Positions 24,681-61,602 of a DNA stretch of 64,000 nt are shown here, in pieces (position 1 is the stretch's first letter; every line of letters begins with the position of its first letter). The stretch is taken from positions 23,584 to 87,583 of the IMG/VR virus record IMGVR_UViG_3300042503_001430; one strand, given 5' to 3'. Under the pieces are notes generated by a model. It searched no databases. It was given only the letters and a program-made list of their open reading frames with translations, and was not told the origin of the DNA. The stretch comes from a virus. The position numbers were made by a program, and so were the translations under genes.

Positions 24681-25496
24681 ATGAACTTCGAATTTCTCTC
24701 CGACACGTCTGATGAGTATCTTTCACTCATCTCTGGGTGGCAAGATCCATACCCAACACCCGCCTTGGAGCAACATAATGGCATCTACGTTGTTCGTGAT
24801 GATTTGCTTACTGCGGGTACAAAAATACGTGGTGCAGATTACTTAATAGGTCACTGCCCTAAGCACAAGAATATCAAAGAGTGGGTGTATGGTTCTTGTC
24901 CCGCAACGGGGTATGCACAGATCAGTCTTCCGTTTTTGTGTAACAGGTACGATAAGAAAGCTGTCATCTTCATGGCAGAAAGAAGCATGGACAAACTCCA
25001 TGAATATCAGAAGAGGGGTATTGCTCTTGGTGCTCAGTATCATTGGGTACCTGATGGCATGTTGAATGTCACCAAGAAGAGAGCGAAAGATTATGTTGCA
25101 GAAGATCCTGAGACTCGTGCTCTGTTGCCGATAGGTCTTGAACACCCTACAGTGTTCGCATGTTTCATTAAGGTTGCACGTTCGCTGCCTATTACACCTC
25201 GCCACGTTTGGTCTGTTGGTTCTAGTGGTACGTTGAGCAGAGCGTTACAGTTGGCATGGCCACATGCAGAAGTGCACGTTGTGTCTTCTGGTGGCCACAA
25301 CATGAATTCACGTGAGATTGGTCGAGCAATCTTTCACCCATCGAAGTATAAATGGAACCAGACGGTAAAGAAGAACGAGCTTCCTCCATTTCCTAGCGCA
25401 CCAGAATATGACGCAAAAGCTTGGAAGCCGATGCTTGATTACTACGAAACGCATGAGAGAGTTGAACCCATTTTGTTTTGGAATGTAGGTGCATAA
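24681..25496 (+). CDS. PLP-dependent enzyme-like protein (tryptophan synthase beta fold)
   Basis: 271 residues. DDLLTAGTKIRGADYL near residues 40-55 places a Lys where fold II PLP enzymes hold the cofactor (KxR). YGSCPATGYAQISLPFLC, KRGIALGAQYHWV and VGSSGTLSRALQLAWP fit the phosphate-binding and cofactor loops. It resembles cysteine/ACC-deaminase-type enzymes but is short. Substrate unknown. It overlaps the following glycosyltransferase by one base, so the two may act together. Confidence 0.6.
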   Translation: MNFEFLSDTSDEYLSLISGWQDPYPTPALEQHNGIYVVRDDLLTAGTKIRGADYLIGHCPKHKNIKEWVYGSCPATGYAQISLPFLCNRYDKKAVIFMAERSMDKLHEYQKRGIALGAQYHWVPDGMLNVTKKRAKDYVAEDPETRALLPIGLEHPTVFACFIKVARSLPITPRHVWSVGSSGTLSRALQLAWPHAEVHVVSSGGHNMNSREIGRAIFHPSKYKWNQTVKKNELPPFPSAPEYDAKAWKPMLDYYETHERVEPILFWNVGA

Positions 25497-48320: not shown

Positions 48321-48554
48321 ATGACAAGCAATATTGATATAGAACTCGACAACCTCAGACGTACAGAACAAATTAAGGATTGGAGCTCCTCTCTTGGATA
48401 TGGAGAAGCTGAATATACAATCGAATTCAAGCCAGAGAGCGTTCCAAACCTGAAGCTCTTAGCTAAGAAGCTTAACGAAAAGTACGGCGCTCGCCATTTT
48501 ACCAAACATAACGATAATGGCACAATCGCAGTAAGATTTGTGGTTACTCTTTAG
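48321..48554 (+). CDS. Small paralogue family member
   Basis: 77 residues after GGAG. ELDNLRRTEQIKDW (helix 1), YTIEFKPES (strand), LKLLAKKLNEKYGA (helix 2), GTIAVRFVVTL (last strand). The clearest short copy: helix 2 ends in KY as in most members. Function unknown. Confidence 0.6.
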   Translation: MTSNIDIELDNLRRTEQIKDWSSSLGYGEAEYTIEFKPESVPNLKLLAKKLNEKYGARHFTKHNDNGTIAVRFVVTL

Positions 48555-48582
48555 TTGACATAACAGAAAAAGCTGGTATTCT
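48555..48582 (+). promoter_or_regulatory. Sigma70-type promoter
   Basis: TTGACA (48555-48560), 16 nt, TATTCT (48577-48582). Predicted start near 48589, 6 nt before the next ATG. Confidence 0.55.
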
Positions 48583-48594
48583 ACCAGAAGAATC

Positions 48595-48879
48595 ATGCTC
48601 AAAAGCTCAAAAGAGAAATCTGTTGAGAAGCTAGAAAAGGAACTGTACGTAGCACACAAACGTGGTTACATTTTCAGATGCACACACATTTCTGAAATGA
48701 CCAGTTTCGGTGATTCGAGTGAGATTGTAGGGGTCGAGGTTCTGTTCTCTGATGACGTATCGATTGAATCAATACGAAAGATCAAGACGTACATAGAAAA
48801 GACCTACGATTTTGATGTTGATAATACAACATACATGGATCTCTCTAACGCAGTGAAGATCATTATTGTGAGGTACTGA
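48595..48879 (+). CDS. Small paralogue family member
   Basis: 94 residues. LEKELYVAHKRGYIFRC, VEVLFSDDVS, IRKIKTYIEKTYDFDV, VKIIIVRY. Nearly no mRNA leader is predicted from its promoter. Closest to the next copy, which it precedes by 1 nt. Confidence 0.6.
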   Translation: MLKSSKEKSVEKLEKELYVAHKRGYIFRCTHISEMTSFGDSSEIVGVEVLFSDDVSIESIRKIKTYIEKTYDFDVDNTTYMDLSNAVKIIIVRY

Positions 48880-48880
48880 T

Positions 48881-49165
48881 ATGCAAACCGAAATATCAAC
48901 AGATGCGCTGTATTCAAGAGTGCGAGATTTTGAGCACGAATTGAAGCGTGTTCATGCAACTGGTCACATCATCAAAACCCTCAACATAAAAAAGTATGAC
49001 GACGATGGCTCTTCTATCAAGGGTGTTGAGCTTCTGGTTGACGCTCGTGTGTCCAAGAATCAGATCAAGCAGATTGTAGACTACATTAAGAAGGTTTACA
49101 GCTTCGATACGCTCTTTCACGCAAAAACACATTCTATCAAGATTTGGTACAAGAGCATCAAGTAA
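48881..49165 (+). CDS. Small paralogue family member
   Basis: 94 residues. FEHELKRVHATGHIIKT, VELLVDARVSKNQIKQIVDYIKKVYSFDT, SIKIWYKSI. Tandem with the previous copy. The ends of helix 1 (GHII) and helix 2 (YIKKVY) are the family landmarks. Confidence 0.6.
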   Translation: MQTEISTDALYSRVRDFEHELKRVHATGHIIKTLNIKKYDDDGSSIKGVELLVDARVSKNQIKQIVDYIKKVYSFDTLFHAKTHSIKIWYKSIK

Positions 49166-49365
49166 TGGCAAAGATTTACTCCTTCGAGGAGTACAAGATC
49201 CGGCGATTAATCAGAGATAATCAAGAAGACCTCCTGTCAAAAATCGAGTTTTGTGATAAGAATGGGTATCTCTGGACTGATCATTACTCAATAAAGATGA
49301 TCGGTGACAGAATTGAAGAGTTGAAGAAAATGCTAGAGGACTTGAAAAATGAAAAACCTTCATGA
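49165..49365 (+). CDS. Hypothetical small protein
   Basis: 66 residues, starting one base into the previous stop (TAATG). IYSFEEYKIRRLIRDNQEDLLSKIEFCDKNGYLW and a long C-terminal helix. Not a clear family member (no second strand-helix-strand). Overlaps the transaminase gene by 17 nt. Confidence 0.5.
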   Translation: MAKIYSFEEYKIRRLIRDNQEDLLSKIEFCDKNGYLWTDHYSIKMIGDRIEELKKMLEDLKNEKPS

Positions 49366-50626
49366 TGTAGCTTCGAAATACATTCTTGTTGACCACTTTG
49401 ACATGATCTATTCGATAGATTCGAGTAAAGGTAACTTCTTATACGACAAGAAGAATGATCGCATGTTACTCGATGCGTTCAGCTTCATAGCGAGCAACCC
49501 GATTGGTCATAACCACCCAAAGATGTCTGACCCCGACTTTGAGAGAAAGCTTCTCAGAGCAGCGAAGGTGAATCCATCTAACTCAGATATTCTCACCGAA
49601 GAGTATGTAGAGTTTCTTGAGACGTTCTTCGATATTGCAGTGCCTTCATACTTCAGAGACTCGTTCTTTATTGCCGGTGGGTGTCTTGCGGTAGAAAATG
49701 CTCTCAAGACTGCATTTGACTGGAAATACCGAAAGCTCAAAGAGCGTGGTATAATGGTAAATCCAAACCACATGAAGGTCATACACTTCAAGAACTCGTT
49801 TCATGGTCGTTCTGGGTATACCATGACGCTCACTAATACCGCAGACCCACGTAAGTATCAGTTCTTTCCTAAGTTTGAAAATTGGCCACGATTGTGTGCA
49901 CCTGCTGTTCATGAAAAATACACAGCACAAGAGCAAGCAGAGCGAGATCACCGATTCTATCTTAATGCTCTTGATGTTGCAGAGTGTCAGGGTCATGAGT
50001 GTGCTGCGATAATCATTGAGCCAATTCAGGGTGAAGGTGGTGATAACCATTTCACGAAACAGTTTCATCAGAACTTGAGAAAAATTGCTGATGAGAAAGA
50101 GATGTTGCTTATTTACGATGAGGTACAATCTGGCGTTGGTTTGACTGGTACAATGTGGGCACACCAACTCTACGATGTTCAACCCGACATCATCTCGTTC
50201 GGCAAGAAGATGCAAGTCTGTGGCATTCTGAGTGGTAACAGGGTGCGTGAAGTCAAAGACAACGTATTTGAAGAGAAGTCGAGAATCAACTCAACATGGG
50301 GCGGCAACCTGGTTGATTTTGTTCGCTCACAACGATACCTCGAAATCATACGAGAAGAAAACCTAGTCGAGAATTCTCGTGTTGTGGGTGACTATCTTCT
50401 CACCAAGATGAAAGGCCTGGGTGTACAAAACGCTCGTGGTGCTGGTTTGATGTGTGCATTTGATATGCCAGACGCACAGCAGCGTGATGACTTGGTGAAG
50501 CGATGCATACAAAATGGTCTGTTTGTTCTTGGATGTGGCACAAGAAGTGTTCGTGTGCGACCATCACTCACTTTTAGCACACAAGAATGTGACTTGATGA
50601 TAGATATTCTGAAGAAAAGCATGTAG
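49349..50626 (+). CDS. L-lysine 6-transaminase-like class III aminotransferase
   Basis: 425 residues. The N-terminus KYILVDHFDMIYSIDSSKGNFLYD and FSFIASNPIGHNHPKM is characteristic of lysine epsilon-aminotransferase (Lat). Further: FHGRSGYTMTLTNT, IIIEPIQGEGGDNHF, DEVQSGVGLTGTMW (cofactor Asp) and SFGKKMQVCGI, whose Lys should bind PLP. Lat turns lysine and 2-oxoglutarate into allysine and glutamate. Such an enzyme is very unusual in a phage. Starts inside the previous gene. Confidence 0.8.
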   Translation: MKNLHDVASKYILVDHFDMIYSIDSSKGNFLYDKKNDRMLLDAFSFIASNPIGHNHPKMSDPDFERKLLRAAKVNPSNSDILTEEYVEFLETFFDIAVPSYFRDSFFIAGGCLAVENALKTAFDWKYRKLKERGIMVNPNHMKVIHFKNSFHGRSGYTMTLTNTADPRKYQFFPKFENWPRLCAPAVHEKYTAQEQAERDHRFYLNALDVAECQGHECAAIIIEPIQGEGGDNHFTKQFHQNLRKIADEKEMLLIYDEVQSGVGLTGTMWAHQLYDVQPDIISFGKKMQVCGILSGNRVREVKDNVFEEKSRINSTWGGNLVDFVRSQRYLEIIREENLVENSRVVGDYLLTKMKGLGVQNARGAGLMCAFDMPDAQQRDDLVKRCIQNGLFVLGCGTRSVRVRPSLTFSTQECDLMIDILKKSM

Positions 50627-50629
50627 TGA

Positions 50630-50944
50630 ATGCAACAAAAGGTACTTGAGCTGTTTACAGAATTGCAGAGAGCACGAAAGCTGAAGTTCATTCAAGGTAT
50701 CGATTGCCTTGTGATGAACGATCATCCTATGCTCACTCGTGATACGAGTCTTTTTGCGATGTCTGACGTTTCAGTACCTCACCCCAATACAGTGAAAATG
50801 TATGTGAGGTTCGACCCTAGCGTTTCATATGGTCAAATACTTGACATCAAACGATATGTGGAGATCAAGTATGGATTCAAGTGCTCTCTTTGTGAATGGT
50901 CTATTCCCTCAAGATTGGACATAACAGTGAATATAAATATCTGA
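50630..50944 (+). CDS. Small paralogue family member
   Basis: 104 residues. LFTELQRARKLKFIQGI (helix 1), VKMYVRFDPSVSYGQILDIKRYVEIKYGFKC, LDITVNI. The ATG is 3 nt after the transaminase stop. A loop of about 30 residues is inserted before the second strand. A late promoter for the next gene lies in its last codons. Confidence 0.58.
   Translation: MQQKVLELFTELQRARKLKFIQGIDCLVMNDHPMLTRDTSLFAMSDVSVPHPNTVKMYVRFDPSVSYGQILDIKRYVEIKYGFKCSLCEWSIPSRLDITVNINI
50932..50939 (+). promoter_or_regulatory. Late promoter TATAAATA
   Basis: Exact T4 consensus. Predicted start 50945, 2 nt before the ATG. Confidence 0.72.
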
Positions 50945-50946
50945 CT

Positions 50947-51804
50947 ATGAAGAGCTTTTTAGAGTATTCACGTCAAATTGACGAGAAGCAAATTCAGTAC
51001 GGCAAGAACGCTAACTACGGACAGGTGGTGTTCTTTGCTGGCGGTGCTGCATCAGGTAAAGGCTTCGCAGTATCTAACTTCATCGACACAACCAAATTCA
51101 AAGTGTGGGACGTTGACGATCTGAAAATCAAGCTCACCAAGATGCCGAGCATGGTTGCTAAGTACCCTGGTATCGACAAGCTGAAGCTCAATAATCCAGA
51201 AGATGTTAGACAGCTACACCTCATAGCAAAAAACGAAGGCATACCAGAAAAGCAACTCAAAGCATGGATTGGTAACTTTCATTCACCCGATACTTTGCCG
51301 AACCTTCTGTTCGACATGACGTTCAAGAGCATAGAAAACGCATCGTTCATCATACCAGACCTCATCAAAGCTGGCTACAAACCACAAAACATTCACATCA
51401 CCTGGATTCTTGCAAACTACAACGTAGCTGTACAGAGAAACAGAATGAGAGAACGTGTGGTGCCAGATGACATTATGTTACTCACACACTCTGGCGCTGC
51501 GATGACGATGAAAGACATCTTGAGTGGTTCATTACCAAAAGAGATCAACGGCAGTTTTACGGTTGTTCTCAACAATCCAGAAGAAGTGTCGTTCTACACT
51601 CGAAGTGATGATGAAAAATCAAAAATAACGAAACCATCGAAATCCTCTGTCGTAAAAGACTTTACCTACATCACAGTAAAGAAAGCCGGTGCGCCTATGC
51701 AAACATGGCGAGAGATGCAATCACAAATTCGTGAAAAGATATTTTCATGGGTCATGAAGAATGCACCTCAATCTGATGAGGTTAAGGGTGCATATTCGTC
51801 TTGA
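50947..51804 (+). CDS. Capsid-targeted P-loop kinase-like protein
   Basis: 285 residues from the ATG behind the late promoter. Leader variant MKSFLEYSRQIDE-K with the cleavage-type site IDE. Walker A is AGGAASGKG (residues 31-39), then VWDVDDLKIKL (acidic motif after strand 2), ITWILANYNVAVQRNRMRER (lid-type Arg). This fits Zeta-toxin/kinase-like P-loop proteins of phages. An injected kinase could act on nucleotides or a host protein. Confidence 0.65.
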   Translation: MKSFLEYSRQIDEKQIQYGKNANYGQVVFFAGGAASGKGFAVSNFIDTTKFKVWDVDDLKIKLTKMPSMVAKYPGIDKLKLNNPEDVRQLHLIAKNEGIPEKQLKAWIGNFHSPDTLPNLLFDMTFKSIENASFIIPDLIKAGYKPQNIHITWILANYNVAVQRNRMRERVVPDDIMLLTHSGAAMTMKDILSGSLPKEINGSFTVVLNNPEEVSFYTRSDDEKSKITKPSKSSVVKDFTYITVKKAGAPMQTWREMQSQIREKIFSWVMKNAPQSDEVKGAYSS

Positions 51805-52039
51805 ACAGCTTCAAAATCAACTAAGACAAGCGCAAGAGCTTGAGTACATCATACATCTCGAATTTCAGAGAAACTATGTCGTCGTGCACTTTGCACAGCA
51901 CGTGTTGTACAAGACCATTCATGAGTTAGTACGACACATAAACCTCTCATATAAAGATGTTGCGTGGGTGCCTAGTTCTCTATACCTAGTGAATCCAACA
52001 AAACGAATAACCATTCACTACAAACGAGATCACTCATGA
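51776..52039 (+). CDS. Small paralogue family member
   Basis: 87 residues, start uncertain (ATG 51776, or GTG 51788 after AAGG). LEQLQNQLRQAQELEYIIHL, YVVVHFAQH, HELVRHINLSYKDV, ITIHY. Overlaps the end of the leader-tagged kinase gene by 29 nt. Confidence 0.55.
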   Translation: MRLRVHIRLEQLQNQLRQAQELEYIIHLEFQRNYVVVHFAQHVLYKTIHELVRHINLSYKDVAWVPSSLYLVNPTKRITIHYKRDHS

Positions 52040-52299
52040 GTAAAGAGCATGATCTCTGGCGAGAGATAGACGAAGCTGTGGTGAACGGATATGTCTACCA
52101 TCTCGAAGAGGTTTGTGAAACTCATGGCACCTCCCGCATCTGTAATTATGGAACAAAGATTTGGTTCAACGGCCGAGTGAATGCTGAACAGTGTCAAAAA
52201 ATTGCTCTGTACATTCGGCAGAAGTACGATCTGAAAGTGGATTATCACACAGAATTTTGTCTCGTTATTTGGCATTCCATGTCAAATCAGCCATCATAA
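52036..52299 (+). CDS. Small paralogue family member
   Basis: 87 residues, ATGA overlap with the preceding copy. LWREIDEAVVNGYVYHL, TKIWFNGRVNAEQCQKIALYIRQKYDLKV, FCLVIWHS. Strong match in helix 2 (YIRQKY). Confidence 0.6.
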   Translation: MSKEHDLWREIDEAVVNGYVYHLEEVCETHGTSRICNYGTKIWFNGRVNAEQCQKIALYIRQKYDLKVDYHTEFCLVIWHSMSNQPS

Positions 52300-52351
52300 A
52301 AATCGAATAAAAAATTGCATCCACATTATTTTCTGATACCATTTTCGAAGT

Positions 52352-52771
52352 ATGTCAAGCTTCGATAAACTCTTAGGTATAGAACCACAACTCGACGCAG
52401 AGAAGCGTGAACGTGCACCGTCACCGAATGCTTCTCTCTATCGAAGAAAGTACCTACGAGCGAAAAAGAGAAACCCGATTAGTCTGCTGTTCAAAAATGC
52501 AAAACGCAGAGCACGAGAAAAGGGTCTTGAATTTTCAATAACGAAAGATGATGTGCCTATGCCGAAGGTGTGTCCGATTCTTGGTATTCCTCTGTTTTCT
52601 GCTGAGGGGTATGCGAAAGACAACTCACCTTCTATCGACAGAATAGACAGCACGAAGGGGTACGTGCCTGGTAATGTGATGATCATTTCGTTCAGAGCAA
52701 ACACACTCAAGAACGATGCAACACGAGATGAGCTACAGCGAGTTTTAGACTTCTTATGCAAAACAACATAG
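52352..52771 (+). CDS. HNH-like endonuclease
   Basis: 139 residues. CPILGIPLF (zinc or fold Cys), SPSIDRIDSTKGYVPGNVMIISFRANTLKNDAT. This SxDRIDxxKGYxxGNV...RAN..KN pattern defines a phage HNH-related nuclease family. The first His of HNH is not obvious, so activity is uncertain. It may be a free-standing mobile nuclease inside the small-gene cluster; TTGCAT and TACCAT upstream give a weak promoter. Confidence 0.6.
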   Translation: MSSFDKLLGIEPQLDAEKRERAPSPNASLYRRKYLRAKKRNPISLLFKNAKRRAREKGLEFSITKDDVPMPKVCPILGIPLFSAEGYAKDNSPSIDRIDSTKGYVPGNVMIISFRANTLKNDATRDELQRVLDFLCKTT

Positions 52772-53019
52772 AACACGAAACCAACCACTTTCATTCACTA
52801 ATACTTGAGCTTCAAGAAGCGAAGCGTCTTGGTCACATCTTTCAGATTCAATTTCTCTCTCATGACTTATTGGTGCTGATGAATAGCGACACCACGACTG
52901 CAAAAATAACCGAGGTTGCCGATTACATTAGCAAGAAGTATCGCATCTACACCGAAGCATCTATCAGCGCAAAGACCATCACGATATTTGATGTTTACAT
53001 GCTCGATCCAAAAGTATGA
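52756..53019 (+). CDS. Small paralogue family member
   Basis: 87 residues, overlapping the HNH gene by 16 nt. LILELQEAKRLGHIFQI, LLVLMNSDTTTAKITEVADYISKKYRIYT, KTITIFDVY. All family landmarks are present. Confidence 0.6.
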   Translation: MQNNIEHETNHFHSLILELQEAKRLGHIFQIQFLSHDLLVLMNSDTTTAKITEVADYISKKYRIYTEASISAKTITIFDVYMLDPKV

Positions 53020-53273
53020 GAGATTTAACAGACCTAAAGTTTGCCCTACAAAAAGCAGCAGAGATGACTCTGATCGACAATTTTTCGGTTCAGATGCACT
53101 ACCTCGACATTGACTTTCATTTAGGACACGAAAATCGCACACCCAGTTCTGTAGATAGAATTCTGATTCTTCGTGATTTCATCAGAATGAACTATCGAGA
53201 AGTTGTCGCTGCGGATTACATGCCTTTACTCAACCGATTGAGATTGTATGGAAATTTCCAACGAATTAAGTGA
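53016..53273 (+). CDS. Small paralogue family member
   Basis: 85 residues, ATGA overlap. LKFALQKAAEMTLIDNF, LDIDFHLG, ILILRDFIRMNYREVV, then LRLYG. Helix 1 uses Ala where others have Glu. It overlaps the next copy by 26 nt in a different frame. Confidence 0.55.
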   Translation: MRDLTDLKFALQKAAEMTLIDNFSVQMHYLDIDFHLGHENRTPSSVDRILILRDFIRMNYREVVAADYMPLLNRLRLYGNFQRIK

Positions 53274-53490
53274 ACTCACAACAGAGCTTGAGAAAGCATA
53301 CTCACGAGGATTGATAGTTTACTACAGTCTAAATAGGTGTGTAATCGACGCCAACATTGAGTATGTCGATTTGCACATAACACTATGCAGTCGTGATTTT
53401 AATCGAGAAGAGCCGTTGAGAAAGTACCTGCGAGATAGGTACGGAACCTTGGTTCGCTCAATATTGATAGAACCCCACACAAGAAACTGA
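53248..53490 (+). CDS. Small paralogue family member
   Basis: 80 residues. LTTELEKAYSRGLIVYY, VDLHITLCSRD, LRKYLRDRYGTLV, ILIEP. ELEKAYSRGLI is nearly the family consensus for helix 1. Confidence 0.58.
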   Translation: MEISNELSELTTELEKAYSRGLIVYYSLNRCVIDANIEYVDLHITLCSRDFNREEPLRKYLRDRYGTLVRSILIEPHTRN

Positions 53491-53502
53491 CAGGGCACAC
53501 AC

Positions 53503-53883
53503 ATGACAACAAAAGAGAAGGTACAGAAGCTGGTTTACGTACATGACCTTTCTAAGATGAAGATTGAAGCTCGATTGCCAGAGATGGTGCGAGATGTTGA
53601 GCTTGATGACGTTACGTTGAAGGTGAATATGCCATCGCACGAAGAACGTGCAGCGTCTATTGCTTGGGATGCTTGCTACATTCAGTATCTCAATAGCAAT
53701 CCAAGCGGAACCCTCGAAGATTTTGATGCGAACCTCAACATGGTTGCATACGAGCAGATTACCAGAGATGTGCAGAGCAAGATTCCACAAGAAGTAGACT
53801 TGAATGAATTGCGTGAAATTCACCGTGTTCAATTCTTGAACTTGACCAGAGTTGATTTGAAGCGACAGATTGACAATGAGTAG
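53503..53883 (+). CDS. Hypothetical protein, paralogue of the gene at 61965
   Basis: 126 residues. KVQKLVYVHDLSKMKI, then SIAWDACYIQYLNSNPSGTLEDFDANL and IPQEVDLNELREI. The YL..NP.GTLEDF block and the flanks are shared with 61965-62342, showing an old duplication. All-helical second half. Function unknown. Confidence 0.6.
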   Translation: MTTKEKVQKLVYVHDLSKMKIEARLPEMVRDVELDDVTLKVNMPSHEERAASIAWDACYIQYLNSNPSGTLEDFDANLNMVAYEQITRDVQSKIPQEVDLNELREIHRVQFLNLTRVDLKRQIDNE

Positions 53884-53888
53884 CACCC

Positions 53889-54122
53889 ATGCGGTCGTTT
53901 ACGCATCTTGAACTTCAGCTTGTTCTGGCAAAAAAGTGTAAACTCATCAAAGACTTTGAGTACATAAAGAATCGTGACTTCATTCTTGTGAGGTTCTTGT
54001 CTGCTACGACACAAGAACAGAAGTATGAGTTGCGAGAGCATATTCGACAAGCATATCGAGACGTTATAAGTGTTACTCTGACACCACACGACAACGCACT
54101 GTACATACGTTACTCTTCATAA
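53889..54122 (+). CDS. Small paralogue family member
   Basis: 77 residues. LQLVLAKKCKLIKDFEYI, FILVRFLSATTQEQKYELREHIRQAYRDVI, ALYIRYSS. Its last codons carry the late promoter of the following leader-tagged peptidase gene. Confidence 0.6.
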   Translation: MRSFTHLELQLVLAKKCKLIKDFEYIKNRDFILVRFLSATTQEQKYELREHIRQAYRDVISVTLTPHDNALYIRYSS

Positions 54123-54125
54123 ATA
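54118..54125 (+). promoter_or_regulatory. Late promoter CATAAATA, predicted start at the ATG
   Basis: Predicted start 54131, the A of the next ATG; leaderless late mRNA expected. Confidence 0.72.
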
Positions 54126-54130
54126 TCTGT

Positions 54131-54997
54131 ATGAAATCGTTCAAAGAGTTTCTTACAGAAGCACTTATTGATGTTGATGCGTCAGATATTAATCTGATCT
54201 ACGCACCTATGGCAAAGCCTATGCGAGAACTTGCAGAGGTTTGGAAACGTCATTTCAAAGACCTCACAAGCAGCGACCTAGACCTTCGGAATCTTGCACA
54301 AACCCGATTACAACGTGAACTGAATGAGGTGCGAAAGAAGTATCAGCCCGTGTTTGGTCCACTGAAAGTGATTGACTCATCGAAACTCAAGTCAGAGAAC
54401 GCAAAGAAAGCACATGCAATAAACCCAGTGAAGATCAATGTGTACTTAATTGGTACACCGAGCATGTCAAATTCATACAACGTACAGCACAAGGAGATTA
54501 ACATCTGTTTGCCGTATGGTGTTGCAGAAGCGATGATGGATCGTATCAACACTGTACCTCAGTATCAGTTACCGATGCTACAGAACGAAGTATCGATGTT
54601 GAAGCACAAGACAACCATTCGTCATGAACTCACCCACTGGATAGACGATTCACTTCACAACCTGTACCTGACAAAAGCACTGTTTCGTGCTCACGAACTG
54701 GTAAAAGTAGACAAAGAAGGTGCGGTAAAATACTACAATGATGCTGTGAAGCATGGGTTCGATGACATTTACCTATCGCCCGTAGAAGTCACGCCGATGG
54801 TGAATCAGATAGCAGAACTGAAGCGACGACTTGGCAACAAAAAATACGACAACCTCACCTGGGCACAGGTCATGATACTTTTACCTTCGCTCGATTCATT
54901 GAATAGAAAACACGGCGCAGCATGGCGCAAAATCATGTTCACTCGACTTGCTAGAGAAAACCTCATAGGTAAAAAGTTCAGAGATCAGTTGTCGTGA
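54131..54997 (+). CDS. Capsid-targeted zinc metallopeptidase (second)
   Basis: 288 residues. Leader MKSFKEFLTE-A. Zinc motif HELTH at 165-169 (IRHELTHWIDD), then SPVEVTPMVNQIAELK about 50 residues on, with Glu as candidate third ligand. KINVYLIGTPSMSNSYN may line the site. It differs in sequence from the peptidase at 5493 except for leader and zincin motif. Predicted to be packaged and injected. Overlaps the next gene by GTGA. Confidence 0.72.
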   Translation: MKSFKEFLTEALIDVDASDINLIYAPMAKPMRELAEVWKRHFKDLTSSDLDLRNLAQTRLQRELNEVRKKYQPVFGPLKVIDSSKLKSENAKKAHAINPVKINVYLIGTPSMSNSYNVQHKEINICLPYGVAEAMMDRINTVPQYQLPMLQNEVSMLKHKTTIRHELTHWIDDSLHNLYLTKALFRAHELVKVDKEGAVKYYNDAVKHGFDDIYLSPVEVTPMVNQIAELKRRLGNKKYDNLTWAQVMILLPSLDSLNRKHGAAWRKIMFTRLARENLIGKKFRDQLS

Positions 54998-55308
54998 GCA
55001 TCGAGCCACCACCACAATCAAAACCAAAAAAGCAATTAAGTGACCTCGAAACTGAGTGTCGAAATGCATATCGCCACGGGCTGATAGAAGAGTATGCTTG
55101 TAACCCATACCTTGCGAAGCCGTATATATTCATACGGTTTCATAAGCTCACCGAACAATCAACAAAGGTTGATTTGGTTGAGTACATCAAAGCAACTTAT
55201 CATGTGAAAGAGATTGAATTCGTCGCTGACGGCAGTGCGCTCTACATCGTATATGATTACTGGTCACGATACGAAGACCACAACGACAACGACGGCGAGA
55301 TTGATTGA
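54994..55308 (+). CDS. Small paralogue family member, GTG start
   Basis: 104 residues from GTG (GTGA overlap). LETECRNAYRHGLIEEY, YIFIRFHKL, LVEYIKATYHVKEI, ALYIVYDYW. N-terminal Pro/Lys linker and acidic C-terminal tail extend the fold. Translationally coupled to the injected peptidase gene. Confidence 0.6.
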   Translation: MSIEPPPQSKPKKQLSDLETECRNAYRHGLIEEYACNPYLAKPYIFIRFHKLTEQSTKVDLVEYIKATYHVKEIEFVADGSALYIVYDYWSRYEDHNDNDGEID

Positions 55309-57101: not shown

Positions 57102-58286
57102 ATGAAGTTATCAAAACGTGCTCAAAAATTGGGGTGCTCACCTATTCGAAGTCCACTCAAGCCGAGTGATACTTCGGTGCATGTACATCGATTGAATATT
57201 GGTCAGCCTGATATTCACTCACCCAAAGAGTTTATCGATGCGTTACATGCGTTTTCTAACCCCGTTGTTGCATACGATTCTGCACAAGGTAACGCAGACC
57301 TCATTTCTGCGTGGGTACGAACCATCAACACCCAATACAAAACAGCTCTTGCACCAGAGAACATGGTAATCACATCAGGGTCTAGTGAAGCACTCACATT
57401 CGCATTCAATATCTGCTGTGATGCTGGCGACAATATTCTCGTATTTGCGCCGACGTATGCAAACTACACTGGGTTTGCAACCATGACTGGTATCAACTTG
57501 AACGTCATTCAGTGCTCATTTGATTCTGGGTTTCATGCGCCTGTGAATAAGCACGAGATTGAGAAGTGCATCACCAAGAAAACGAGAGCAATTCTCATAT
57601 GCAATCCAAACAATCCAACAGGTACGGTATTCACAGAAGCTGAGATTCGCACGTTGCTTGACATATGCGAACAACATGATCTGTTTTTGATTGTTGATGA
57701 AGTGTATCGTGAGTTTGTCTACGATACGAAACCGACAAGTGCGTTAGAAATTGCACCACACAGTGATAGAGTGGTTGTTGTCGATAGCATCTCAAAACGA
57801 TACAGTCTCTGTGGTGCTCGTATTGGTTGCATCATCTCACATAACGAAAACTTTATTGCAGCAGCTACCAATTTTGCCGGCACTCGTGTGTCTGCACCTA
57901 TTGTTGAACAGATTGCAGCAGCGCACATGCTCAATACCATACCCGACAATTACTTGACAGAAACAGTGCGTGAGTATGCAGAACGTAGAGCAACCCTCAT
58001 ATCGAACCTTAGCACTATACCTGATGTAGAGGTGTGTGTGCCTGAAGGTGGGTTTTACGTGTTTGCAAAACTGCCGGTAAAAGACAGTGCAGACTTCTGC
58101 AAGTTCATGCTCGGTGAATTCTCACACAACGGTAACACGGTAGCTCTCGCACCTGCACATGGATTTTTCATCTCAAAGCCACAATCGAAGAGCTACGTAA
58201 GAATTGCATTTGTGGTATCGGTGCAAGATTTGATTAGTGCGACTGATGTATTACGACACGCTCTTGAAGCATATCAGAATCGATAA
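57102..58286 (+). CDS. Class I/II aminotransferase (aspartate-aminotransferase-like)
   Basis: 394 residues. LNIGQPDIHSP, SGSSEALTFAFN, CNPNNPTGTVF (cofactor Asn), VDEVYREFVYD (Asp/Tyr), SISKRYSLCGARIGC with PLP Lys in SKRY, and C-terminal VRIAFV (substrate Arg). Complete active site. Its late promoter is odd for a metabolic gene and suggests use late in infection. It has no capsid leader (MKLSKRAQKLG). Confidence 0.88.
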   Translation: MKLSKRAQKLGCSPIRSPLKPSDTSVHVHRLNIGQPDIHSPKEFIDALHAFSNPVVAYDSAQGNADLISAWVRTINTQYKTALAPENMVITSGSSEALTFAFNICCDAGDNILVFAPTYANYTGFATMTGINLNVIQCSFDSGFHAPVNKHEIEKCITKKTRAILICNPNNPTGTVFTEAEIRTLLDICEQHDLFLIVDEVYREFVYDTKPTSALEIAPHSDRVVVVDSISKRYSLCGARIGCIISHNENFIAAATNFAGTRVSAPIVEQIAAAHMLNTIPDNYLTETVREYAERRATLISNLSTIPDVEVCVPEGGFYVFAKLPVKDSADFCKFMLGEFSHNGNTVALAPAHGFFISKPQSKSYVRIAFVVSVQDLISATDVLRHALEAYQNR

Positions 58287-59135: not shown

Positions 59136-59207
59136 GTTTCCATCGTCTAGTGGTTAGGACACCCGCCTTTCACGCAGGTAACACGGGTTCGACTCCCGTT
59201 GGAAACA
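59136..59207 (+). tRNA. tRNA-Glu (TTC)
   Basis: Acceptor GTTTCCA/TGGAAAC, T arm CGGGTTCGACTCCCG, anticodon TTC at 59169-59171. The anticodon stem has one C-A mismatch. CCA is not encoded. Confidence 0.9.
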
Positions 59208-59228
59208 CACACATACATAATGATATAC

Positions 59229-59304
59229 GGAATCGTAGTTCAGTGGTTAGAACGCTCCCCTGTCACGGGAGAGGTCGTGGGTTCAAGTCCCATCGGTTCC
59301 GCCA
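59229..59304 (+). tRNA. tRNA-Asp (GTC)
   Basis: Acceptor GGAATCG/CGGTTCC, anticodon GTC at 59262-59264, loop CTGTCAC; GCCA end encoded. Confidence 0.93.
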
Positions 59305-59314
59305 TTTTTTATAT

Positions 59315-59389
59315 CGGGGTGTAGCTCAGCCCGGCTAGAGCGCCTGTTTTGGGAACAGGAGGTCGTAAGTTCGAATCTTGCTACCCCGA
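59315..59389 (+). tRNA. tRNA-Pro (TGG)
   Basis: Acceptor CGGGGTG/TACCCCG, anticodon TGG at 59350-59352 in loop TTTGGGA. CCA is not encoded. Confidence 0.92.
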
Positions 59390-59394
59390 CACAC

Positions 59395-59469
59395 TGGCGA
59401 GTAATTCAGTGGAAGAATGTCTGACTGTTAATCAGATCGTCGTAGGTTCGATCCCTACCTCGCCAGCCA
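59395..59469 (+). tRNA. tRNA-Asn (GTT)
   Basis: Acceptor TGGCGAG/CTCGCCA, anticodon GTT at 59427-59429, loop CTGTTAA; GCCA end encoded. Confidence 0.93.
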
Positions 59470-60046: not shown

Positions 60047-60301
60047 ATGATAGCACCCACCCTCATTCACGAACTCTCAGAAGCACGACAACGTGACCTG
60101 TTGCAGTTTAAGATATTCAATGAGTATGAGCTTCAGATCACGTTCTATGGGGTGTCACAAACGACCGTAGAAAGAATTCAACATTATATTCAAACTCACT
60201 ATGACTACCGAACCACACTCTTTATCGACTATAGCATCAGCACCGTGATGGTGTACACGTACAGTACGATAAAGCTCAACCCGCCGGAAATATGGATATG
60301 A
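60047..60301 (+). CDS. Small paralogue family member
   Basis: 84 residues. LIHELSEARQRDLLQFKIF, LQITFYGVSQTTVERIQHYIQTHYDYRT, TVMVYTYS. Lies between two leader-tagged genes and overlaps the second by 4 nt. Confidence 0.6.
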   Translation: MIAPTLIHELSEARQRDLLQFKIFNEYELQITFYGVSQTTVERIQHYIQTHYDYRTTLFIDYSISTVMVYTYSTIKLNPPEIWI

Positions 60302-60702
60302 AACGCTTTACGCAATACCTTACTGAAGCTCTTGACCCCGTTGAAGTACTAGGTCGCAACCTTGCTGCAAAAGCTAGGTACAAGCAGTTGCACCAGTCGA
60401 ATCCACAAGCAGCACACGAGTTTCTACAGAGATATAAAGCTCGCACTGAAGCACACCAGAAGCTCTACACGCTACTGAAAGACCTTATCTCACAACACCT
60501 CTCTCGCACCTCAAAGCTCAACATCACGTCAGGGTCAAACTATGCTATCGCTGTGAAGAATGTATCTGATGCGGTACGTGATCAGTTTCCAGAATTGAAG
60601 CACCAACAGATTGCACGAGCACTGAACGACCTAAATGCAGACACCGAGACCATGACGAGCATGTTGATTGATGTGTTGTTTTCAGACTTGAAGAAGTTGT
60701 AG
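60298..60702 (+). CDS. Capsid-targeted protein, unknown domain
   Basis: 134 residues from the ATG giving MKRFTQYLTE-A (an ATG two codons upstream is rejected). The body is helical: VEVLGRNLAAKARYKQL, AAHEFLQRYKARTEAH, LYTLLKDLISQHLSR and a final helical domain QIARALNDLNAD. Part of a late operon. Function unknown. Confidence 0.62.
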   Translation: MKRFTQYLTEALDPVEVLGRNLAAKARYKQLHQSNPQAAHEFLQRYKARTEAHQKLYTLLKDLISQHLSRTSKLNITSGSNYAIAVKNVSDAVRDQFPELKHQQIARALNDLNADTETMTSMLIDVLFSDLKKL

Positions 60703-60711
60703 AGAGATCGT

Positions 60712-60915
60712 ATGAGACCGACACACTACACGATAACTGAAACTTCAGATGGCATCAGGGTTGTTCACCACGATGCAATCTTGGTAGCGATTATCACCGC
60801 TAGTAACGTGGTGTTGTACTATGACAATGACCAGCTCAAAATGCTTGGTCAGTTTCATGATGATGATGCACTACTGCAAGCACTCACAGTAAAGCACGAC
60901 ACGATGAAGTTGTAG
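60712..60915 (+). CDS. Hypothetical small protein
   Basis: 67 residues. Beta-rich (DGIRVVHHDAILVAIIT, NVVLYY), then an acidic helix. No family landmarks. It stands between a leader-tagged gene and another small paralogue. Confidence 0.45.
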   Translation: MRPTHYTITETSDGIRVVHHDAILVAIITASNVVLYYDNDQLKMLGQFHDDDALLQALTVKHDTMKL

Positions 60916-60918
60916 ACG

Positions 60919-61158
60919 ATGCGAACCTCGTTTCCACAATTAGTGCAAGACCTACAGAGAGCGTATGAGCAGAACTTAATCGCTAATGTAGTCATTCCAC
61001 ACTTGTCGCTCTATCCACAAAACATTACGTTCAACACCACCCACCCCATGTCACAAGAGACTCAAGACAAGCTCATCGAGTACCTAGAGACAGAGTGTGA
61101 TAACGTCATCGTCGCATATGCAGGTGAGCACAAGGTTCTGATACGAGTGAGACCATGA
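60919..61158 (+). CDS. Small paralogue family member
   Basis: 79 residues. LVQDLQRAYEQNLIANV, QNITFNTTHPM, LIEYLETECDNVIV, KVLIRVRP. Helix 2 ends in EC instead of KY. ATGA overlap with the next gene. Confidence 0.57.
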   Translation: MRTSFPQLVQDLQRAYEQNLIANVVIPHLSLYPQNITFNTTHPMSQETQDKLIEYLETECDNVIVAYAGEHKVLIRVRP

Positions 61159-61334
61159 CACACCTTGAAGCAACACTGATCAAAGCACTGAGAGACATCG
61201 GCTGCACATGGCGACGAATAGCAGAAATTCACGCAGAATCCACAAACAGTACAGACACCTCACAAGAACGTGGAAGAGAGCTATGTGAACAAGCTGCACA
61301 AGTTCTTAACCTAGACTCACTCGACGATGAGTAA
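61155..61334 (+). CDS. Small helical protein
   Basis: 59 residues starting on the overlapping ATGA. LIKALRDIGCTWRRIAEIHAE has helix-turn-helix-like spacing; the rest is acidic. Might be a small regulator; low evidence. Confidence 0.45.
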   Translation: MTHLEATLIKALRDIGCTWRRIAEIHAESTNSTDTSQERGRELCEQAAQVLNLDSLDDE

Positions 61335-61352
61335 CCACAAAAAATCCACAAA

Positions 61353-61381
61353 TTGACAAAACCAGTCGAGTTTGGTATACT
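61353..61381 (+). promoter_or_regulatory. Consensus sigma70 promoter
   Basis: TTGACA (61353-61358), 17 nt, TATACT (61376-61381). Predicted start near 61388, 2 nt before the ATG. Confidence 0.75.
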
Positions 61382-61389
61382 AACACCAT

Positions 61390-61602
61390 ATGCTGCCGAC
61401 AGACTTAGACAGAGCACTCAAACTAGCACTCAGAGAACGAGTCATTACCCACATGCGTAAGTACCAGTCTACGACGATTGTTCATTTCCATGAATCGGTG
61501 AGTGATAAGAACAAACGAACGCTACAAACCTACCTCTCAGTGCGATACAACTATACCACCTCTCTCAGTGCTCTAGGTGACAAGATGTACATTTACCACT
61601 AA
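61390..61602 (+). CDS. Small paralogue family member
   Basis: 70 residues, the shortest copy. LDRALKLALRERVITHM, TIVHFHESVSDKNKRTLQTYLSVRYNYTT, KMYIYH. Landmarks intact without linkers, so it is a good model of the minimal fold. Confidence 0.6.
   Translation: MLPTDLDRALKLALRERVITHMRKYQSTTIVHFHESVSDKNKRTLQTYLSVRYNYTTSLSALGDKMYIYH

Follow-up and report, generated by a model that had tools for sequence, protein, structure and literature searches.

Why would a phage carry an enzyme for the removal of the epsilon-amino group of lysine? The question is raised by an open reading frame in the window analysed here, a stretch of 64,000 nucleotides that covers positions 23584-87583 of a linear, 87,583-base IMG/VR virus record. 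An initial annotation proposed that this frame encodes a lysine 6-transaminase (LAT). We asked whether the assignment holds, which genes accompany LAT in phages, and what the reaction might supply during infection. The coordinates of the main features are collected in Table 1.

Table 1. Positions of the predicted LAT gene, selected codons and neighbouring frames in the window
Feature	Position	Strand	Basis
66-aa ORF, overlapping the LAT start by 17 bases	49165..49365	+	ORF call
Predicted LAT gene, 425 aa, ATG start	49349..50626	+	ORF call
Codon of Arg154 (M. tuberculosis LAT Arg170)	49808..49810	+	alignment
Codon of Lys286 (M. tuberculosis LAT Lys300)	50204..50206	+	alignment
Codon of Arg402 (M. 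tuberculosis LAT Arg422)	50552..50554	+	alignment
Class I/II aminotransferase	57102..58286	+	NF005744, 460 bits, cut-off 389

Family assignment of the transaminase

The sole Pfam match of the protein is to the class-III aminotransferases (PF00202, 269 bits). The NCBIfam model for LAT, TIGR03251, matched residues 3-424 of 425 with 520.3 bits, and the next family, which is also the best ornithine, acetylornithine or GABA transaminase model, reached 221.7 bits. The curated cut-off of TIGR03251 is 520.8, 0.5 bit above the window protein; among its phage relatives one passes (L006, 528.1) and three do not (L009, 515.0; L016, 502.6; L037, 471.6), and we read this cut-off as an annotation threshold, not as a defining feature of LAT. 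When the PDB was searched by sequence, the M. tuberculosis LAT entries were the best matches (366-370 bits, top 369.8), followed by GABA transaminase at 157. The same entries led the fold comparison: an AlphaFold2 model of the protein (mean pLDDT 81.5, weak at 151-174) aligned with LAT entries at Z 45.5-45.8, with an rmsd of 2.5-2.6 across 407-412 residues, and the entry ranked after them reached a Z of 38.7.

We constructed two phylogenetic trees. The first held 110 rows, seven near-duplicate phage rows having been dropped, with the GABA, succinylornithine, DABA, putrescine and BioA transaminases (gabT, astC, dat, patA and bioA) as outgroups. In this tree the LAT family formed one clade against all five (SH-aLRT 100), and the phage LATs fell into two phage-only clades. 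The second held 71 rows, made up of the 42 phage sequences left after thinning at 95% identity, one in three of the cellular rows and two outgroups; here LAT was split from gabT and astC at 100/100, and the clade of the window protein (six rows, 100/100) was sister to the sampled cellular LATs (pair 100/100), apart from the other phage LATs. The phylogenetic check proposed with the annotation therefore groups the protein with LAT, not inside another transaminase clade.

The active site of M. tuberculosis LAT, in the passages available from PMC9780415, comprises Glu243, Arg422, Gln274, Lys300, Arg170, Phe167, Thr330 and Asn328; by alignment all eight are kept in the window, as E229, R402, Q260, K286, R154, F151, T316 and N314. 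The same passages describe Arg170 as binding the substrate carboxylate, Lys300 as the residue of the PLP Schiff base and Arg422 as the partner of the Glu243 switch, Glu243 being Glu229 in the window (PMC9780415). The LAT-typical N328, K301, Q303 and S329 (M. tuberculosis numbering) are likewise kept, and are replaced in all five outgroup transaminases tested. At least 95% of the other LATs agree at each of 82 columns; the window protein departs from them at one. Family model, PDB sequence and fold matches, active site and tree all agree with the initial annotation, and on the strength of sequence and model we assign the ORF product to LAT by family. The N-terminal signature that was said to separate LAT from other class III enzymes is not enough by itself; the distinction comes from the full chain and the active site.

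Does the fold persist in phages for a non-catalytic role? The case for this comes from one relative, L036:9989-11203, which changes 18 of the same 82 columns and carries K300D, E243Y, N328C and R422S as well as internal deletions, yet retains an open 404-aa frame on a branch no longer than its sister branches. Its residues make it a possible pseudo-enzyme, and because it lacks the Schiff-base lysine though its frame is open, catalysis may not be indispensable everywhere. However, L036 is one metagenomic contig and may represent a decaying gene or an assembly error, and all eight active-site residues are kept not only in the window but in 53 of 60 phage rows. We therefore consider a non-catalytic role highly improbable. 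The other changed phage LATs are L028 (E243D and N328R), L020 (F167V) and L211, L212 and L220 (all N328S).

The phage record and its LAT relatives

The record is a T4-like phage fragment of 87.6 kb. It encodes a DNA polymerase (best match Synechococcus phage DSL-LC03, 46.8%), UvsX, a DnaB-like helicase, primase, RNR, ligase, PhoH, a ssDNA-binding protein, a baseplate hub and an endolysin. With these T4-like genes on the same record, LAT lies among phage genes and not in host DNA, and it occupies the same place in three related contigs (L003, L004 and L005), in which the order of the tail and small-protein genes around it is kept; its placement in a phage was thus borne out. The expanded cluster of small proteins that had been described around LAT is also real. 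A single HMM family takes in twelve of the window's ORFs, each about 70-104 aa long, and has 53 matches in the fetched loci (L001 and L003-L005), five of them window ORFs repeated through L001. These paralogous proteins lie at window positions 48321-55308 and 60047-61602, and LAT sits among them. The model of one (53889-54122, pLDDT 95.6) has a helix-strand-strand-helix-strand-strand order and gave no PDB match at E <= 0.001. The 66-aa ORF that overlaps the LAT start has a homologue immediately upstream of LAT in L003; in L004 and L005 the homologues lie upstream of LAT by a few genes. The window's 66-aa ORF is probably co-transcribed with LAT.

Other genes around LAT were noted in passing. 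Directly 3' of LAT in two of the contigs (L004:11312-12580 and L005:11349-12644) is a gene whose product, judged by eye, resembles a secreted zinc metalloprotease, with an HExxHxxGxxHD motif that we take to be of that type; none was seen in the window's cluster. The window also holds four tRNA genes at 59136-59469 (Glu, Asp, Pro and Asn) and a PALP-like ORF at 24681-25496 (PF00291, 26.8 bits, below its cut-off; PHROG threonine dehydratase, 122 bits), followed by a glycosyltransferase-like ORF. The class I/II aminotransferase has an orthologue downstream of LAT in L003, the only one among 24 other LAT records tested, and it was rejected as a fixed partner of LAT; when viral sequences were scanned with it, no relative could be confirmed.

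LAT orthologues with 69-79% identity are found in six IMG/VR contigs (L003-L008). Scanning IMG/VR with the query gave 10 loci (L003-L012, 43-79% identity), and scanning with an alignment gave 34 loci in all, L038 being a weak part match only. Among 50,697 GenBank phage records, one alone matched at LAT level, that of the 595 kb phage LR756511.1 (uncultured; 43%, the runner-up being below 30%), and no cultured phage in that collection did so. In L012:9434-11179, LAT shares one open frame of 581 aa with an upstream stretch that by eye resembles an HNH endonuclease. Between the window and L003 copies pN is 0.14 and pS 0.78, and omega was 0.057-0.122 in the five of 12 phage pairs where it was computable, dS being saturated in the other seven. 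These ratios indicate that the gene is under purifying selection; with orthologues, kept gene order and pN far below pS, its presence is not due to chance.

Partner genes and competing roles

The LAT assignment and established chemistry together define the first step that we propose for the window phage: the epsilon-amino group of host L-lysine would be transferred to 2-oxoglutarate, giving glutamate and allysine. Free allysine cyclises, and the product would close to 1-piperideine-6-carboxylate (P6C). The LAT reaction is described as Lys + 2-oxoglutarate -> P6C + Glu in passages of PMC4726150 and PMC9780415. The complete window record gave no match to glutamate dehydrogenase (GDH), aldehyde dehydrogenase (ALDH), pyrroline-5-carboxylate (P5C) reductase, thymidylate synthase or a saccharopine-dehydrogenase C-domain, and the other T4-like LAT records tested, all of them fragments, likewise lacked GDH, ALDH, P5C reductase, thymidylate synthase and saccharopine-dehydrogenase genes. 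The window phage thus shows LAT alone in its known 87.6 kb, and what follows for the use of the product would be by analogy with other phages.

Clustering the flanks of LAT loci revealed a family present in five of 10 LAT groups, which is glutamate dehydrogenase (two Pfam domains, 215.6 and 182.2 bits). GDH occurs in 7 of 23 LAT records, the window's own included, and adjoins LAT in jumbo-type phages. We reversed the test by fetching 24 phage loci with this GDH without reference to LAT, and found LAT upstream on the same strand in 16 of them, although one (L209) has a 145-aa part only; L200, with a LAT tail at the contig edge, brings LAT or a remnant of it to 17 of 24. Two further loci (L205 and L221) have less than 2 kb of upstream sequence, and in five (L203, L215, L216, L217 and L218) LAT is missing from the entire record, though the locus is uncut near GDH; the L203 record has a saccharopine-dehydrogenase-family gene elsewhere. 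Around L209:6770, the GDH phage keeps the C-terminal part of LAT alone, as a 182-aa open frame, which is perhaps a LAT being lost. Alternating strands had raised the idea that the GDH group are eukaryotic viruses; this was rejected, terminase (PF03237) being present in 9 of 23 records, a total that includes the window's own record, which is not among the nine.

Other phages carry an operon of VOC, ALDH, arginine-dihydrolase-like and LAT genes. LAT follows ALDH and the arginine-dihydrolase/dimethylargininase-like gene in L022, L026, L029, L030, L031 and L037; near the last of these, a GlmS-like gene (L037:4505-6289, by eye) lies upstream of the operon and a UDP-glucose-dehydrogenase-like gene after LAT. 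The arginine-dihydrolase-like gene scores 233.7 bits to NF052232, below the cut-off of 450. The ALDH reaches no NCBIfam cut-off: glutamate-semialdehyde dehydrogenase scores 306.5 and P6C dehydrogenase 275.5, several other ALDH families score above the latter, and these scores do not discriminate between the families.

When this ALDH was used as the query, 74 loci were recovered. LAT is present in 17 of them, and the arginine-dihydrolase-like gene in exactly the same 17. ALDH was accordingly rejected as a LAT-specific partner, and it was because 57 loci are without LAT that a second gene came to light. This gene, of 360-374 aa, recurs in 46 ALDH loci lacking LAT (for example L161:11879-12970) and belongs to the saccharopine-dehydrogenase family (PF16653; the six members tested scored 64.6-96.4 bits). 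Its NCBIfam scores all stay below cut-off; in a profile search of the PDB its best entry is 3ABI, at 132.6 bits, ahead of alpha-aminoadipic semialdehyde synthase (76.7) and carboxyspermidine dehydrogenase (23.3). 3ABI is an L-lysine 6-dehydrogenase, according to a passage of PMC10413350. The L161 copy has no match in the 50,697 GenBank phage records. Overall, 46 of the 74 loci hold the saccharopine-dehydrogenase-family gene alone, 12 LAT alone, five both and 11 neither, so that 63 hold one or both predicted makers of the allysine/P6C aldehyde; ten of the 11 with neither have less than 3.5 kb after ALDH or are cut within it. No GDH was found in the flanks of these 74 loci. ALDH and GDH are both encoded on the 430 kb record from which L192 (ALDH) and L218 (GDH) come; LR756511 carries LAT and, a long way from it, an ALDH of 56% identity.

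These partners bear on three other uses of the transaminase. It could act on ornithine, completing with the arginine-dihydrolase-like enzyme and ALDH a route from arginine through ornithine and P5C to glutamate. The company of the arginine-dihydrolase-like gene in 17 of 17 ALDH loci with LAT fits this route, as does the higher score of the ALDH as a glutamate-semialdehyde dehydrogenase. However, neither the window nor the GDH loci yielded an arginine-dihydrolase-like gene close to LAT, the window protein keeps the LAT-typical residues given above, and the 46 ALDH loci pair instead with the gene closest to lysine 6-dehydrogenase. We regard the ornithine route as unlikely.

A second use keeps lysine as the substrate but changes the fate of P6C, which host P5C reductase (ProC) would convert to L-pipecolate, the gain being an osmolyte or signal and not nitrogen. 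ProC of E. coli does make pipecolate from P6C, according to a passage of PMC12899673, and the window phage has no ALDH or GDH of its own in view. Against this, the partners in other phages are oxidative, not reductive, and P5C reductase was found in none of 31 LAT records, when 12 of 14 control genomes were positive; a phage-encoded pipecolate module was dropped on that count, and we judge the ProC route improbable.

Finally, the initial annotation had suggested a reactive aldehyde for modification; the target could be DNA, glycan or protein, whether of the phage or of its host. Other PLP-type genes in the phage (the class I/II aminotransferase and the PALP-like ORF), the glycosyltransferase-like gene and, in several operons, the UDP-glucose-dehydrogenase-like gene after LAT would suit such a role. 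Thymine hypermodification would be expected to involve a thymidylate-synthase-type enzyme, but one occurs in only one of 31 LAT records, and DNA hypermodification was rejected for want of a consistent enzyme of this type. Moreover, the partners common to LAT groups are GDH and ALDH, and allysine, when free, cyclises. We found no positive evidence for aldehyde modification and think it very unlikely.

A proposed model of lysine catabolism and its known counterparts

We think it reasonably likely that the window gene encodes an active PLP-dependent lysine 6-transaminase that acts as the entry step of lysine catabolism, feeding nitrogen and reducing power; its activity, its direction and the benefit to phage synthesis, in nitrogen and reducing power, are predictions from sequence. 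In phages with GDH, this enzyme could return 2-oxoglutarate and free ammonia with formation of NADH, if it runs in that direction, and LAT and GDH would together amount to the lysine 6-dehydrogenase reaction, Lys + NAD+ + H2O -> P6C + NH4+ + NADH. In phages with ALDH, P6C would be oxidised to 2-aminoadipate, again with NADH, and the saccharopine-dehydrogenase-family enzyme would make the same aldehyde from lysine. The best argument that ALDH acts on allysine/P6C, and LAT on lysine, is that two unrelated enzymes with one product adjoin one ALDH. The window phage shows only the first step, and a P6C-oxidising ALDH would presumably come from the host. The phage would gain nitrogen, a balance of 2-oxoglutarate, and NADH. 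Draining lysine and producing glutamate, which had been listed among the possible roles, is supported by the GDH, ALDH and lysine-dehydrogenase-like partners in other phages; draining lysine may also serve to change host physiology. In a mycobacterial lat mutant, glutamate and total amino acids are reduced and persistence is impaired, according to a passage of PMC4726150.

More broadly, we infer that lysine epsilon-deamination is a recurrent phage-encoded function, which supplies glutamate or ammonia as well as NADH. A wider reading, for which we see the chances as evenly balanced, is that uncultured tailed phages recurrently carry interchangeable modules for the oxidative epsilon-deamination of host lysine, all leading to P6C or 2-aminoadipate. 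The modules would be LAT by itself or with as yet unseen partners in T4-like phages, LAT with GDH in jumbo-type phages, and ALDH with either LAT (and the arginine-dihydrolase-like enzyme) or the lysine-6-dehydrogenase-like enzyme. If true, this would be virus-driven catabolism of a basic amino acid, in which nitrogen passes to glutamate or ammonia and NADH is gained. The data suggest that host lysine serves some phages as a source of nitrogen and energy while they infect, and a recurrent lysine-degrading set with two unrelated first-step enzymes would mark the supply of amino-acid nitrogen and redox as a target of selection in infection. Our searches of the open-licence PMC literature listed no paper on LAT or saccharopine-type dehydrogenases in phages. 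The enzyme itself is a new addition to a known family; what seems new beyond this is that it recurs in phages alongside catabolic partners.

The closest characterised counterpart, M. tuberculosis LAT (Rv3290c, PDB 2CIN), resembles the window protein in fold, in the eight active-site residues and in full-length alignment. It differs in sequence (38-41% identity in structural alignments) and in two pocket positions, where Ala129 and Val63 are Cys112 and Ile47 in the window protein, whose gene is on a phage genome. A scan of cellular genomes, from which we took the best 80 of at least 529 matches, a sample biased toward the query, gave a LAT ORF in 76; identity to LATs of Balneolota, Ignavibacteriota, Acidobacteriota and others reached 53% among those 80, and an ALDH-like gene lay within about 5 kb in 8 of the 76 loci. 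The window's clade is a phage-only sister of these sampled cellular LATs, which had been selected for their similarity to phage LATs. L-lysine 6-dehydrogenase (P. horikoshii, 3ABI) makes the same product from lysine, and its relative replaces LAT beside the phage ALDH; unlike LAT, it is NAD-dependent, has an unrelated fold and needs no amino acceptor, and it is absent from the window. T4-like cyanophages carry auxiliary metabolic genes, and to our knowledge phage metabolic genes mostly concern photosynthesis, nucleotides, carbon, phosphate or sulfur. The window LAT is likewise a host-type metabolic enzyme on a T4-like genome, but it differs from the cyanophage genes in belonging to amino-acid catabolism.
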